DNA of 64,000 bases from Afipia sp. OHSU_II-C1 (GTDB taxonomy: Bacteria > Pseudomonadota > Alphaproteobacteria > Rhizobiales > Xanthobacteraceae), in the NCBI RefSeq assembly GCF_000497575.1, contig NZ_APJI01000014.1:124001-188000 (forward strand), given 5' to 3'. Below, one piece after another: positions 544-6,915 of this stretch. Numbering within the stretch: position 1 is the stretch's first letter; each line of letters opens with the position of its first letter. Both the position numbers and the translations under genes were made by a program. The notes below the pieces were generated by a model, which ran no database searches, was not told where the DNA came from, and saw nothing but the letters and a program-made list of their open reading frames with translations.

Positions 544-1566
544 TCAGCGCCAGCCCAGCGCCGGGGCCACATGTTTCAGGATCGATTCAATGACATGGGC
601 ATTGTAATCGACGCCGAGCTGATTGGGCACCGTCAGCAACAGCGTATCGGCCTCGGCAATGGCCTCGTCCGTCTTCAACTGTTCGATCAGCTTGTCCGGC
701 TCTGCCGTATAGCCGCGTCCGAAGATCGCCTGCATGTCGGCCTCGATGAAGCCGATCTGGTCGCCGGCATCGCCACCGTTTCCGAAAGTGTCGCGGTCGC
801 GATCGTTCATCAGCGCGAAGATGCTGCGGCTGACAGACACGCGCGGCGTGCGGGTGTGGCCCGCTTCCTTGTAGGCTTCGCGATAGAGCCGGATCTGCTT
901 GGCCTGCTGCACATGGAACGGCTCGTTGGTCTCGTTCTTCTTCAATGTCGAGCTTTGAAGATTCATGCCGAGCTTGCCCGCCCACTGCGCGGTCGCGTTC
1001 GAGGCCGCGCCCCACCAGATGCGGTCGCGCAGGCCTTCGGAATGCGGCTCGATCCGCAGGAGGCCAGGCGGGTTGGGAAACATCGGGCGCGGATTTGGCT
1101 GCGCGAAACCCTTGCCGCGCAGCATGTCGTAAAACACCTCGCCGTGGCGGCGGCCCATGTCGGCGTCGGTCTCGCCCTCATTGGGCTGATAGCCGAAATA
1201 GCGCCAGCCATCGATGACCTGCTCGGGCGAGCCGCGGCTGATCCCCAGTTGCAGGCGTCCGCCCGCGATGAGGTCGGCGGCGCTCGCGTCCTCGACCATG
1301 TAGAGCGGGTTCTCGTAGCGCATGTCGATGACGGCGGTGCCGATCTCGATGGTGCTGGTCTTTGCGCCAACGGCGGCCAGCAGCGGGAAGGGCGAGGCGA
1401 GCTGGCGCGCGAAATGATGCACGCGGAAATACGCGCCGTCCGCGCCAAGCTCCTCGGCTGCGACGGCGAGATCAATGGATTGCAGCAGCGTGTCAGCGGT
1501 CGAGCGTGTCTGTGAATGCGCCGACGGCGACCAGTGGCCGAAGGAGAGAAAGCCGATTTTCTTCAT
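544..1566 (-). CDS. LLM-class flavin-dependent oxidoreductase
   Basis: A 340-residue protein of the bacterial luciferase-like monooxygenase superfamily, a TIM barrel that uses reduced FMN (or F420 in actinobacteria). It opens with the family pattern MKKIGFLSFGHWSPS. AEELGADGAYFRVHHF matches the usual (A/E)xxGxDxxWxxEHHF stretch. GTAVIDMRYENPLYMVEDAS and LQLGISRGSPEQV match the conserved GT.V....P...AE and G.GRG segments. Length is normal for the family. The substrate cannot be told from sequence. It stands alone: downstream is a 206-bp gap to the small membrane gene, and upstream is a repeat-rich spacer, so it is probably monocistronic. Confidence 0.85.
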   Translation of the reverse strand: MKKIGFLSFGHWSPSAHSQTRSTADTLLQSIDLAVAAEELGADGAYFRVHHFARQLASPFPLLAAVGAKTSTIEIGTAVIDMRYENPLYMVEDASAADLIAGGRLQLGISRGSPEQVIDGWRYFGYQPNEGETDADMGRRHGEVFYDMLRGKGFAQPNPRPMFPNPPGLLRIEPHSEGLRDRIWWGAASNATAQWAGKLGMNLQSSTLKKNETNEPFHVQQAKQIRLYREAYKEAGHTRTPRVSVSRSIFALMNDRDRDTFGNGGDAGDQIGFIEADMQAIFGRGYTAEPDKLIEQLKTDEAIAEADTLLLTVPNQLGVDYNAHVIESILKHVAPALGWR

Positions 1567-1813: not shown

Positions 1814-1893
1814 GTAGCCCGTATGGAGCGAAGCGCAATAAGGGTTGCGGAATATGATCGTCCCCGGATTTCGCTTCGCTCCATCCGGGCTAC
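1814..1893. repeat. palindromic intergenic repeat, GTAGCCCG.ATGGAGCGAAGCG family
   Basis: An 80-bp inverted repeat runs from GTAGCCCGTATGGAGCGAAG on the left to CTTCGCTCCATCCGGGCTAC on the right. It is a second dispersed-repeat family, placed only 38 bp from the first and 30 bp from the stop of the A/T-rich gene at 1923. The repeats thus form the boundary between the core luciferase-like gene and the accessory cassette. Confidence 0.75.
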
Positions 1894-1922
1894 GCGGGCT
1901 AGTCAAAAATCGTCGTAAAATA

Positions 1923-2600
1923 CTAGCTGTGTTGTCCTTTGAATTTTGCAAATACAGACTCGAAAATACCACGCATAACATCGACGTTATGAGGGAATAT
2001 AGGGGTAAACTTCAAATCATAATCCCGTGTGTGTTTTGCCAGTAATTTTTCGACACTTCTTGAATGCGAGGTAGCAATGAAGAAGCGGTTTTCTCTTTGT
2101 ATTTCTTCGCGAAGTCCTAAGAAGCTTCGAGCTAATCCTAAGCCGGGTTTTGAATTAACGTAGAATTTGCACTCCACCGCGAGTAGCACTTTTGATGAGC
2201 GCGGCAATACATGATTTGATCGGCAAATATCCGCTTCAGATTTGTGAATTATGGCTACGTCACATTCGTGACGAACATCCGATCTTCCAGCAACATATAT
2301 GCCCGTGTGCGCTTCGAGAATTGGACAGTTTGGGAAGATTATTTCGGCGTGGCAGTATGGATGCTTACTCCACCACAATTCGCTGGGCGAGGTTCTAAAA
2401 TAATAGTCGCTTAAAACATTATTCCCGTACACGTCTTTGAAGTTTATGGTCGCCTGTTTATTCTTTGCTGCTTCGATCGCTACTGACCAGATATATGCCT
2501 CATACAAATCGTCCCCGTTGGAAGCGCTTGTAACATTAGGAGTAATCGTGTGCGAAAGTGCTGTTTGAATTTGGTGCAAAAGACTTGCGTTGAGCGTCAT
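1923..2600 (-). CDS. PD-(D/E)XK nuclease-like hypothetical protein
   Basis: A 225-residue protein that I do not recognise by name. Residues 110-147 carry a pattern typical of the restriction-endonuclease-like fold: D114 in HECDVAII, then about 28 residues later VECKFY with E143 and K145, that is D...ExK. An acidic residue in the N-terminal helix (E34 in DDLYEAYIW) would complete the usual set. No signal peptide or membrane helix is present. Its ATG overlaps the stop of the gene at 2597-3070 by four bases (ATGA), so the two are translated together. Base composition and codon use are clearly more A/T-rich than the surrounding genes, which suggests acquisition. Nuclease activity is inferred only from the motif. 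Confidence 0.6.
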   Translation of the reverse strand: MTLNASLLHQIQTALSHTITPNVTSASNGDDLYEAYIWSVAIEAAKNKQATINFKDVYGNNVLSDYYFRTSPSELWWSKHPYCHAEIIFPNCPILEAHTGIYVAGRSDVRHECDVAIIHKSEADICRSNHVLPRSSKVLLAVECKFYVNSKPGLGLARSFLGLREEIQRENRFFIATSHSRSVEKLLAKHTRDYDLKFTPIFPHNVDVMRGIFESVFAKFKGQHS

Positions 2601-3070
2601 TGCTTGGCCTCAACTTCCAATTGGATCAATAGTTTTGCAATTTCTGCAGCGCCCAATTTTTTATGGGCTAGGTCATCGCTTCGAAAATGATACTCATCGG
2701 TCGTCTTGTCCGGGTCTGCGAAAAATACGCGTGGTTTAACAGAACCGTTCTCAAGAGTTTTTAATAGTGACTCTTGAATTTTTACTGCACCTACAACTAC
2801 AGCATTCATTGCACCGATGGCGATCTCTAGTTTTTCTAACGATGCATAGTCTTCTCGCGTCAGAAATTCGCCAGGTATAGAAGCCTTTTTAGTTTCGCGG
2901 ATTCGCTCGCCTCGCTCAATTTGCGGGCTTGGAAGGGTTGTGATGCGTCCGTGTTTTGGTTTTCCGATAATGACCTCGTCTTCAATCTGCTGAGCTACCC
3001 ACGGGAGCTTATTTTCTTGGAGCCATTGTATTATTTGATCGTACGCTTCTTTCATCAATTGATCTGACAT
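2597..3070 (-). CDS. hypothetical protein, first gene of A/T-rich cassette (157 aa)
   Basis: The frame is open further upstream from a TTG at 3109. I choose the ATG at 3070 (MSDQLMKEAYDQ) because GGAGCG lies 10-11 bases before it, and because a perfect TATAAT at 3109-3114 would leave the upstream codons untranslated or outside the mRNA. The 157-residue product has an amphipathic N-terminal helix (residues 1-30), a basic middle (GKPKHGRI..., residues 36-62) and a long helical C-terminal half. No signal peptide or catalytic motif was recognised. It is coupled by ATGA overlap to the nuclease-like gene downstream. It might be its DNA- or protein-binding partner or immunity protein, but that is speculation. 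Confidence 0.6.
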   Translation of the reverse strand: MSDQLMKEAYDQIIQWLQENKLPWVAQQIEDEVIIGKPKHGRITTLPSPQIERGERIRETKKASIPGEFLTREDYASLEKLEIAIGAMNAVVVGAVKIQESLLKTLENGSVKPRVFFADPDKTTDEYHFRSDDLAHKKLGAAEIAKLLIQLEVEAKQ

Positions 3071-3108
3071 GAAAAGTTTCGCTCCAGTCTTAAAAATATA
3101 TCGGTTCA

Positions 3109-3114
3109 ATTATA
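3109..3114 (-). promoter_or_regulatory. -10 element candidate for the A/T-rich cassette
   Basis: Read on the minus strand, the T-run of the nrdJ terminator continues directly into a perfect TATAAT, about 39 bases before the chosen ATG at 3070. No good -35 hexamer is found 17 bases upstream, where the terminator stem lies. It is therefore a candidate only. Confidence 0.35.
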
Positions 3115-3144
3115 AAAAAAAGGGCGGCCAGTAGGCCGCCCTTT
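3113..3144 (-). terminator. Rho-independent terminator of nrdJ
   Basis: On the minus strand the stem AAAGGGCGGCC / GGCCGCCCTTT encloses a TACT loop and is followed by a run of eight T. It begins 18 bases after the nrdJ stop codon. It separates nrdJ from the A/T-rich cassette that follows in the same direction. Confidence 0.9.
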
Positions 3145-3162
3145 GGTAAGTTAGATAAGTCC

Positions 3163-6100
3163 TCACGAACATCCCGTCGTGCTGCCGCACGTATCGCACT
3201 TCATACAGGTCCCGTTCCGAACCAGCGTGAAGTTGCTGCACTCGGTGCACATGTCGCCTTCGTAGCCGCGAGCCTTGGCTTCCGCGCGGCGCTCGGCCTT
3301 GCTCGGTGCGGCCTGAGCGGCTGAACCGGCTTTGCTCCACTGCTGCGCTTCCAGCTTTTCGGTCGGCGAGAGGTCGCGCGCGGGCTCCGCCACCTTGAGC
3401 GCGGCTGCGCCCTCAAGGCTGTCGCCCACATGCGTGCCGGAGAGCGCCGTCACCTTCGCGCCGCCCGCGGGTGCGCTGTCGTCGTTGGCGGAGATCGCCG
3501 CCGCGCCGCCGCGCATCACAACCAGGTTGTCCGTGCGCGAGCGGGTGAGGCCCTTCGACAGATACTTGGTCGCGCCGTGTGCTTCCGGCGCCTTGCCTTC
3601 CTCGACGCCCTTGCCCAGTGCATCGAAGCCCATGTCGCTCGGATCGACATGTCCGAGATCGAAGCGCGACATGTAGCTCACCGCCAGTTCGCGGAACACG
3701 TAGTCGAGGATCGAGGTCGCGAACTTGATCGAGTCGTTGCCCTGCACCGGGCCCGCAGGCTCGAAGCGGGTGAAGGTGAAGGCGTCGACATATTCTTCCA
3801 GCGGCACGCCGTACTGGAGGCCGAGCGAGACGGCGATGGCGAAGTTGTTGATGAAGGAGCGGAGCGCCGCGCCTTCCTTGTGCATGTCGATGAAGATTTC
3901 GCCGAGGCGCCCGTCATCGTATTCGCCGGTGCGCAGATAGACCTTGTGTCCGCCGACCACGGCCTTCTGGGTGTAGCCCTTGCGGCGATCCGGCATCTTC
4001 TCGCGCTCGCGCATCACGACGATGCGCTCGACCAGCTTCTCGACGATCTTCTCCGAGACCTGGGCGGTGCGGGCCGCCATCGGCTTCTCGTAGAGCGACT
4101 CGACCGCATCGTCCTCGTCGTCATCGTCGGAGATGAGCTGTGCGTTCAGCGGCTGGCTGAGCTTCGAGCCGTCGCGATAGAGCGCGTTGGCTTTCAGCGC
4201 GAGCTTCCACGAGAGGAGATAGGCGGATTTGCAATCCTCCACCGTGGCGTCGTTCGGCATGTTGATGGTCTTGGAAATCGCACCCGAGATGAAGGGCTGC
4301 GACGCCGCCATCATGCGGATGTGGCTTTCCACCGAGAGATAGCGCTTGCCGATCTTGCCGCAGGGGTTGGCGCAATCGAACACCGCGTAGTGCTCGGCCT
4401 TCAGGTGCGGCGCGCCTTCCACCGTCATCGCGCCGCAGATGTGCACGTTGGCGGCTTCGATCTCGCGCTTGGTGAAGCCGAGCGCGGCGAGCAGGTCGAA
4501 GCCGGGCGCGTTGATCGCTTCGGCATCGAGCTTGAGTTCGTTGCGCAGGAAGTCTTCGCCGAAGGTCCACTTGTTGAACGCGAACTTGATGTCGAACGCG
4601 GTCGGCAGGGCCTTCTCGACCTTGTCCAGCGCTTCATCGGTGAAGCCCTTGGCCTTCAGGGTCGAGCGGTTGACGCCGGGCGCCTGGCCGAGCGAGCCGT
4701 GGCCGACGGCATAGGCTTCGATCTCGGCGATCTCGTTCTCGGGATAGCCGAGGGCGCGCAGCGCTTCCGGCACGGCGCGGTTGATGATCTTCCAGTAGCC
4801 GCCGCCGGCGAGCTTCTTGAATTTCACCAGCGCGAAGTCCGGCTCGATGCCCGTGGTGTCGCAGTCCATCACAAGGCCGATGGTGCCGGTCGGCGCGACC
4901 ACCGTGGTCTGCGCGTTGCGGTAGCCGTGCTGCTGGCCGAGCTCAAGCGCCTGATCCCAGACGAACTTGGCGCGGGTCACGATGTCGCCCTGCGGGCAGC
5001 TTGCGTGATCGAGCGGCACCGGATTGACCGACAGCGCTTCATAGCCGGAGGCTTCGCCATGGGCGGCGCGGCGATGGTTGCGGATCACGCGCAGCATGTG
5101 CGCGGCGTTCTTCTTGTAGCCGGGGAAGGGACCAAGCTCCTTCGCCATCTCGGCAGAGGTGGCGTAGCTGGTGCCGGTCATCACGGCGGTGAGGGCGCCG
5201 CACAGCGCGCGGCCTTCCTTGGAGTCATAGGACAGACCCATGGTCATCAGCAGGCCGCCGATGTTGGCGTAGCCGAGGCCGAGCGTGCGGAACTCGTAGG
5301 AGAGTTCGGCGATCGCCTTCGACGGGAACTGCGCCATCATGACGGAGATTTCGAGCACGACGGTCCAGAGACGGCAGAGGTGCTCATAGGCTTCGACGTC
5401 GAAGCGGCGGGTCTGCGTGTCGTAGAACGTCAAGAGGTTCGCGGAGGCGAGGTTGCACGCCGTGTCGTCGAGGAACATGTACTCCGAGCACGGATTGGAC
5501 GCGCGGATGTCGCCGCTGGCCTTGCAGGTGTGCCAGTCGTTCATGGTGGTGTTGTAGTGCAGGCCCGGATCGGCGGAGGCCCAGGCGGCGTAGCCGATCT
5601 TTTCCCACAGGTCGCGGGCCTTCAGCGTCTTGGTCACCTTCTTGTTGGTGCGGCCGATCAGGTTCCAGTCGCCGTCGGTTTCCACCGCACGCAGGAAGTC
5701 GTCCTTCAGCGAAACCGAGTTGTTGGAGTTCTGGCCGGCGACGGTGAGATACGCTTCGCTATCCCAGTCGGTGTCGTAGGTGTCGAACGAGATGTCGGTG
5801 TAGCCCTGCTTGGCGAACTGCATCACGCGCTTGATCAGATTGTCCTGCACCAGTGCGCGGCGCGCGAACTTGATCTCACGGCGCAGCGCCGGGTTCTTCT
5901 CGGGATCGAAGCAGTCGTCGCCTGAACCTTCGCAGTTCACGCAGGCCTTCATGATGGCCTTGAGGTGCTTCTGATTGATCTTGGAGCCGGTGACGAGCGC
6001 GGCGACCTTCTGCTCCTCCTTCACTTTCCAGTCGATATAGGTCTCGATGTCCGGATGGTCGGCGTCGACCACGACCATCTTGGCCGCGCGGCGCGTGGTG

Positions 6101-6915
6101 CCGCCGGACTTGATCGCGCCCGCTGCGCGGTCGCCGATCTTGAGGAAGCTCATCAGGCCGCTTGAGCGGCCGCCGCCGGAGAGTTTTTCACCTTCGCCGC
6201 GCAGGCGCGAGAAGTTGGAGCCGGTGCCGGAGCCGTACTTGAACAGGCGTGCTTCGCGGACCCACAGGTCCATGATGCCGCCTTCGTTGACGAGATCGTC
6301 GTCCACGCCCTGAATGAAGCAGGCGTGCGGCTGCGGATGCTCGTAGGACGATTTGGACTTGGTCAGCTTGCCGGTCTTCCAATCCACATAGTAGTGGCCC
6401 TGGCCGGGACCATCGACGCCGTAGGCCCAGTGCAGTCCGGTGTTGAACCATTGCGGCGAGTTCGGCGCGACCATCTGCTTGGCAAGCATGAAGCGCAGTT
6501 CGTCGTAGAACGCGCGTGCGTCTTCTTCCGACGAGAAGTACGAACCCTTCCAGCCCCAGTAGGTCCAGCAGCCGGCGAGACGGTCGAACACCTGCTTGGC
6601 GGAATGCTCGCCGCCGATGCGCTCGGATTCGGGGAGCAGGGCGAGCGCTTCGGTATCCGGCACCGAACGCCACAGCCACGAGGGGACGGTTTCTTCCTCG
6701 ACCTTCTTCAGGCGCGAGGCGACGCCGGCTTTGCGGAAATACTTTTGCGCCAGAACGTCGGAGGCGACCTGCGACCAGAACTCCGGCACTTCAACGTTCT
6801 CAAGGCGGAACACCACCGAGCCGTCGGGGTTGCGGATCTCGCTCGTCGTCAGCCGGAAGTCGATGGCGGCGTAGGGTGACTGGTCGGCTTTGGTGTAGCG
6901 GCGTTCGATGCGCAT
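3163..6915 (-). CDS. nrdJ: vitamin B12-dependent (class II) ribonucleoside-diphosphate reductase
   Basis: A 1250-residue adenosylcobalamin-dependent reductase that makes deoxyribonucleotides with or without oxygen. Visible elements are the N-terminal region with [15 protein letters not shown] (residues 152-166), PHACF with a redox cysteine at C199, [20 protein letters not shown] (228-247), the active-site loop NPCSEY with N474, C476 and E478, and [19 protein letters not shown] further on. A TSCPD-like region follows ([20 protein letters not shown]). The C-terminal tail carries CTEC...[14 protein letters not shown], the cysteine pairs that re-reduce the active site or bind zinc. Length fits the long alphaproteobacterial NrdJ form. 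It ends at a strong terminator, so it is a single-gene unit. I found no cobalamin riboswitch upstream. Confidence 0.97.

Follow-up and report, generated by a model that had tools for sequence, protein, structure and literature searches.

The window analysed here, a stretch of 64,000 nucleotides (nt) from the Afipia sp. OHSU_II-C1 contig NZ_APJI01000014.1, contains next to nrdJ two open reading frames (ORFs) on the minus strand, gene A followed by gene B, which are joined by a 4-nt ATGA overlap (Table 1). Judged from the sequence, this overlap suggests translational coupling of A and B. Translation of A probably begins at the ATG at 3070, giving 157 amino acids (aa), and not at an upstream TTG at 3109, a choice made by eye from the relatives of A. 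The initial annotation had set the two genes apart by base composition and codon use, and the measured values agree. The GC contents of A and B (0.431 and 0.432) are the lowest of any genes in the window, the next-lowest being 0.570 among 45 non-overlapping ORFs of at least 150 aa (mean 0.607), and their third-position GC (GC3) is 0.39 and 0.43 against an ORF mean of 0.71. Of 630 sliding 1-kb segments, 7 fall below 0.47 GC, and all 7 start within 1701-2301. The pair is not a chance feature, because 14 further loci carry a B gene with this active site, each preceded by an A-like frame.

Table 1. Features of the A-B cassette and its flanks, with positions in the window
Feature	Position	Strand	Basis
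Gene B, PD-(D/E)XK nuclease-like protein	1923..2600	-	225 aa ORF; family active site, hhalign, fold ranking
D114 codon, predicted metal ligand	2259..2261	-	invariant, 15/15
E143-C144-K145 codons, predicted (D/E)XK motif	2166..2174	-	E143 14/15 (D in L069), K145 15/15
E34 codon, invariant acidic residue of conserved helix	2499..2501	-	15/15; helix 32-47 in model
Gene A, partner, mostly helical, acidic	2597..3070	-	157 aa ORF; homologues upstream of B
A stop / B start ATGA overlap	2597..2600	-	sequence; A-B gaps in other loci
Variable slot, nrdJ stop codon to distal repeat	1894..3162	.	homology breakpoints; other cargo in L055
nrdJ, flanking core gene, class II ribonucleotide reductase	3163..6915	-	Pfam PF02867, PF08471
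Intrinsic terminator-like hairpin after nrdJ	3119..3144	-	position; hairpin scan
Two-armed palindromic repeat, distal edge of slot	1814..1893	.	sequence matches
Luciferase-like monooxygenase gene, other flank	544..1566	-	Pfam PF00296

Gene B is predicted from its sequence to encode a PD-(D/E)XK nuclease. D114, E143, C144 and K145 lie where the initial annotation had placed a restriction-like nuclease pattern, and that pattern, a D followed by (D/E)XK with an acidic residue in an earlier helix, is conserved across 15 diverged B members; the Ruegeria sequence (L004) enters this comparison as a fragment, since its 5' end is out of frame. A profile of B aligned by hhalign with a restriction-endonuclease-like protein at 95.5% probability (E 1.4e-8, 92 columns), with the HxxDVAv and ECK motifs in register, while 77 control proteins reached a top probability of 2.4%; the target was selected rather than random, because it had been chosen by its B-profile match (E 3.1e-4). 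This protein, which we take to be Mrr-like by eye, matches PDB 1y88 (AF1548) at E 2.2e-4, and its plasmid relatives are annotated as restriction endonucleases in 3 of 6 records. The lack of an endonuclease-like fold had been named beforehand as an outcome that would speak against a nuclease, and it did not occur: the predicted structure of B is weak (predicted local distance difference test score, pLDDT, 62), but it ranks with PD-(D/E)XK enzymes, 16 of the first 18 VIA-align rows being restriction enzymes, NucC or McrBC by title. Full-length members span 213-276 aa with no further domain recognised; no Pfam domain in B exceeds its cut-off, and the 225 aa of the window protein leave little room for a separate DNA-recognition domain. 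B is basic (isoelectric point, pI, above 7) in 9 of 14 members. In short, the active site of B is well supported and its fold moderately supported.

With regard to co-occurrence, which had been suggested as a check, each of the 15 B loci has an A-like frame upstream of B, although at three of them this frame is incomplete, broken or lacks annotation. Of the 12 loci where the A-like gene can be read through, 11 have -11 to +2 nt between the end of A and the start of B, and the exception is the out-of-frame L004; in the remaining three, A is split over two frames (L006), apparently ends at a contig edge (L021), or is an unannotated open frame that resembles A by eye (L070). BLAST connected window A to the genes upstream of B in S69, a Bradyrhizobium sp. 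(37-38% identity, E 2e-27), and in SSBR45G (27%, E 1.3e-7). It found no homology to the A-like gene of L004, and profile comparison did not join the most diverged A groups, homology being shown among the nearer loci only; A therefore either evolves very quickly or is replaced at some loci. Identity is lower for A than for B in 62 of 66 pairs, a contrast that is partly trivial because many A pairs are not alignable; it is, however, also lower in all 12 of the pairs whose B proteins resemble each other most. The protein is acidic in 11 of 12 loci (pI 4.3-6.0; window A 5.5; L004 9.3). Its model (pLDDT 68; predicted template-modelling score 0.54) shows helices at 3-19, 23-35, 77-108 and 132-156, and no DNA-binding fold stood out when this weak model was compared with known structures. 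That A is acidic, is encoded ahead of B and changes fast speaks for a lock or a sensor. Two damaged copies were also observed. In Sphingomonas parapaucimobilis plasmid p1 (L006:2677-3085) A is apparently split over two frames beside an intact B, and in Ruegeria sp. ANG-R (L004:7945-8040) B begins in a different frame from the rest of the gene while A is open, which may be a decayed copy or a sequencing error.

The distribution of the pair is sporadic, with many different contexts. Neither B nor A was found in the other 199 of the 200 relatives searched, the window's own genome being the sole match; presence of the pair with normal composition in all close relatives, the second outcome that would have counted against acquisition, was thus not observed. 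The B profile matched 5 of 397 genomes of the order, 3 of 385 in a class sample and 1 of 398 in a phylum sample, each count including the window's own genome. Further members came from three loci on genome contigs, five plasmid records and one viral-collection contig, and phage records gave no match to window B. An additional match in G917 is an Mrr-like protein without A and was excluded from the B set. The named B records belong to Bradyrhizobium (2), Ruegeria, Sphingomonas (3), Roseomonas and Polymorphobacter. On the viral-collection contig (L011:1261-4850) a TIR-NB-ARC-TPR gene and then a SIR2 gene come after the pair; this contig may represent a mobile island and not a phage. On two plasmids a third gene directly follows B, encoding a hypothetical protein that overlaps B (L069:8788-9606) or a DUF4365 protein (L071:8648-9388); either may be an extra component.

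Known defence genes lie within 5 kb of the pair at 7 of the 12 loci surveyed, which are all except the window, S69 and the contig-edge L021. These are Gabija GajA and GajB (L015), a CBASS SAVED effector with ThiF and Mov34 genes (L006/L023), a DRT1a-like reverse transcriptase (L014), an MmeI-like type IIG enzyme (L013), a TIR-NB-ARC-TPR gene with a SIR2/ThsA-like gene (L011), AbiE (L069) and McrBC (L070). L016, a DUF676/PIN-TPR-GreAB-type locus, was left out of the seven, and no defence genes were mapped within 5 kb at L004, L005, L012 and L071. At E 1e-30 or better, 28 PADLOC families were matched among 69 neighbour ORFs against 4 among 77 control ORFs, which were drawn from 12 regions in four of the same genomes (G269, G308, G455, G474). 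The 25 of the 28 that were listed have one member each and carry about 10 different names; the control families are three RtcR-like models and mad3, with 2 members each, RtcR-like regulators being general NtrC-type activators. Matches to MTase_II, REase_II and PDC-S06 were kept at the level of the whole set, unassigned to particular loci.

The window pair itself occupies a variable slot. The comparison covered the sequence that follows nrdJ in S69 and in 14 of 18 further genomes listed for the genus. In 14 of these 15 the homology to the window breaks off at the nrdJ stop codon, from 6 nt ahead of its last base to 2 nt past it; in the remaining one it stops 25 nt ahead of that base. Synteny of the junction between nrdJ and the luciferase-like gene, which had been proposed as a check, shows exchange of cargo: in L055 (G001) an AAA ATPase gene replaces A and B between the same flanks, with a luciferase-like protein 98% identical, while the far flank differs in the other 13 relatives, since the monooxygenase gene was not found in their stretches. 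Ten inserted genes of the 14 relatives have a GC content of 0.44-0.48 in 8 cases and of 0.56 and 0.61 in two. PADLOC matches at E 1e-3 or better were obtained for 7 of these 10, three of them weakly, and 3 match none; the models are PDC-S31, an AriA-like ATPase, PDC-S50, a CBASS phospholipase effector, DUF4238, DitA and PDC-M55C/HEC-05 (GmrSD-like). In S69 the nrdJ gene is 88% identical and A and B sit in the same slot (B 65%, A 37-38% identical), whereas relatives with nrdJ 89-96% identical carry other cargo, a pattern most simply explained by repeated transfer or by long-lasting exchange. Across the family the cargo mostly amounts to one or two genes, and the place is often AT-rich. The slot of S69 (L003:8767-9318) also holds, after A and B, a third low-GC gene of 183 aa with an RNxxH-like motif seen by eye, which may encode a HEPN protein.

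The slot is also visible in base composition. A GC drop of at least 0.10 over 900 nt follows nrdJ in 20 of 30 genomes but parE and mrcA in 0 of 30 each; the nrdJ sample is the best-scoring 30 of 75 matching genomes among 80, whereas the controls use the top 30 of 41, which makes the samples unlike, and the window's own genome is part of all three. A shared 200 nt downstream was found in 1 of 435 pairs after nrdJ, 3 after parE and 184 after mrcA. Missing shared sequence alone is thus not telling, but the GC drop is. The best reading is that the place after nrdJ is an exchange hotspot with variable, mostly AT-rich, often defence-like genes.

At the edges of the slot, the nrdJ terminator noted in the initial annotation corresponds to the hairpin at 3119-3144, a call that rests on position because the scan yields no more such sites than shuffles do. 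Different terminator-like hairpins were seen by eye after nrdJ in several relatives. The palindromic repeats reported on the other side do lie beside the cassette, but they are not widely dispersed: the arms at 1814-1893 are the sole matches in the window allowing up to 6 substitutions, and the 5.08-Mb genome has, at up to 2 mismatches, the cassette copy and one more. Of 11 relatives inspected, 5 have this palindromic repeat no more than about 100 nt from where the inserted gene ends; it was not found in the remaining 6. Just past the distal repeat, at 1685-1775, an inverted-looking sequence with GTCATTGCGAGGAGCGACAGCGACGAAGCAATCC was noticed by eye and may be a second type of intergenic repeat.

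Based on these findings, a model is proposed that A and B form an acquired two-gene nuclease defence cassette in which A controls B; its probability is put at roughly 0.56. In this model B would be a small PD-(D/E)XK nuclease whose active form cuts DNA, and A, probably coupled to it in translation, would bind and control it, most likely by keeping B silent and freeing or directing it once infection is sensed. Active B would then destroy phage DNA, host DNA or both. The cassette would have been acquired by horizontal transfer into the slot at the 3' end of nrdJ. The earlier idea of an acquired island is strengthened by the variable, often AT-rich place after nrdJ and by the defence genes near the pair elsewhere, and that of a two-gene nuclease or defence system by the active site, the alignment and the same neighbours. 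A protective role against phages is suggested by neighbourhood and slot, and A may serve as an inhibitor, a sensor or a specificity subunit. What speaks most against an inhibitor that is strictly required is the Sphingomonas plasmid, where an apparently frameshifted A accompanies an intact B. The charge argument for A is weak, since many bacterial proteins are acidic. The PADLOC contrast shrinks when proteins instead of families are counted, to roughly 10 among 69 versus 2 to 8 among 77, which slightly reduces confidence.

A more specific version of this defence model is given an even chance: an undescribed alphaproteobacterial two-component anti-phage system, consisting of a NucC-sized stand-alone nuclease with an Mrr-like core and a diversifying acidic sensor-lock partner, carried as a minimal cassette in a family-wide exchange slot that starts at the nrdJ stop codon and whose cargo is able to supply the nrdJ terminator. 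If this is true, a compact two-gene nuclease system missed by the searched libraries would be added to bacterial immunity, and simple phage screens could reveal the trigger of its fast-evolving partner. The nrdJ slot would moreover be a ready search site, in which unassigned cassettes of relatives become defence candidates that can be tested singly.

The same pair could instead act in type IV-like restriction, with A as the recognition subunit and B as the nuclease, cutting foreign or modified DNA directly without host killing or a methyltransferase; this is unlikely, though it survives best among the alternatives. Since B comprises hardly more than a nuclease domain, specificity would be expected to reside elsewhere; the B profile aligns with the Mrr-like protein, no methyltransferase recurs beside the pair by eye or annotation, and McrBC and MmeI-like genes are among the neighbours. 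However, the acidity of A in 11 of 12 loci is unusual for a DNA reader, and its weak model offered no DNA-binding fold. Slightly less probable still is a toxin-antitoxin-like addiction module, in which A would be the antitoxin and B a nuclease toxin serving plasmid or island maintenance instead of phage defence. The small, mostly acidic upstream gene that overlaps a nuclease gene, the basic B in 9 of 14 members and the five plasmid records would suit it, but the apparently broken A beside an intact B in L006, the co-location with defence systems and the lack of a recognised DNA-binding domain in A argue against it, and usual antitoxins are smaller than A. A mobile-element nuclease for integration, transfer or repair, carried as a passenger in islands, is improbable: recombinase, resolvase-like or transposase genes lie near L006 and L069 (annotated) and L013 (by eye), yet no recombinase is common to the loci by annotation and eye, the window pair adjoins nrdJ and a monooxygenase gene, and the pair occurs in many contexts. 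An ordinary housekeeping DNA-repair pair of odd base composition has the intact operon in its favour and nothing else, and is strongly disfavoured by the sporadic distribution, the 199 relatives in which the pair was not found and the other genes that occupy the same slot.

The defence cassette proposed here was also sought in existing libraries. PADLOC-DB 2.0.0 gave no match up to E 10 for window A and B, and a set of 21 sequences, made up of window A plus 20 sequences of other loci (L069, L070 and L071 lie outside this set), likewise matched nothing up to E 0.1. NCBIfam gave none for window A and B, and Pfam and PHROGs gave weak, sub-threshold or stray matches. Literature searches found no publication describing the pair, and the papers listed by searches on nrdJ do not contain that word. 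One weak Pfam match of window B was DUF6602 (PF20247; E 0.092, 13.1 bits against a 27-bit cut-off), of which a member in L085 also has a D...ExK pattern by eye. Membership of B in this family was rejected, as the score is below the cut-off, hhalign with the L085 member gives 0.1%, and 0 of 11 other B members match at E 0.1.

Among known systems, Mrr-like or type IV restriction endonucleases share with B the D and ExK motifs in register over 92 columns, but the Mrr-like protein, of 312 aa, showed no A-like gene ahead of it, whereas B has 213-276 aa and such a gene. Unlike NucC, the effector nuclease of CBASS and type III CRISPR, the cassette is without a nucleotide cyclase (no CD-NTase in the window cassette), and the likeness to NucC consists of rows from a weak model. 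Two-gene toxin-antitoxin systems share the gene order, the overlap and the acidic upstream partner; the cassette differs from them in that no known toxin or antitoxin family was matched and in that one plasmid pairs an apparently broken A with an intact B. As a kind, nuclease-based defence cassettes in hotspots are already known, while the A-B pair and the nrdJ slot appear undescribed in what was searched. In E. coli and P. aeruginosa, core-genome hotspots combine a fixed core-gene site with variable defence cargo, as described in two reports (PMC10121019, PMC10250203); compared with these hotspots, the cargo of the nrdJ slot is mostly one or two genes and starts right after the nrdJ stop codon.
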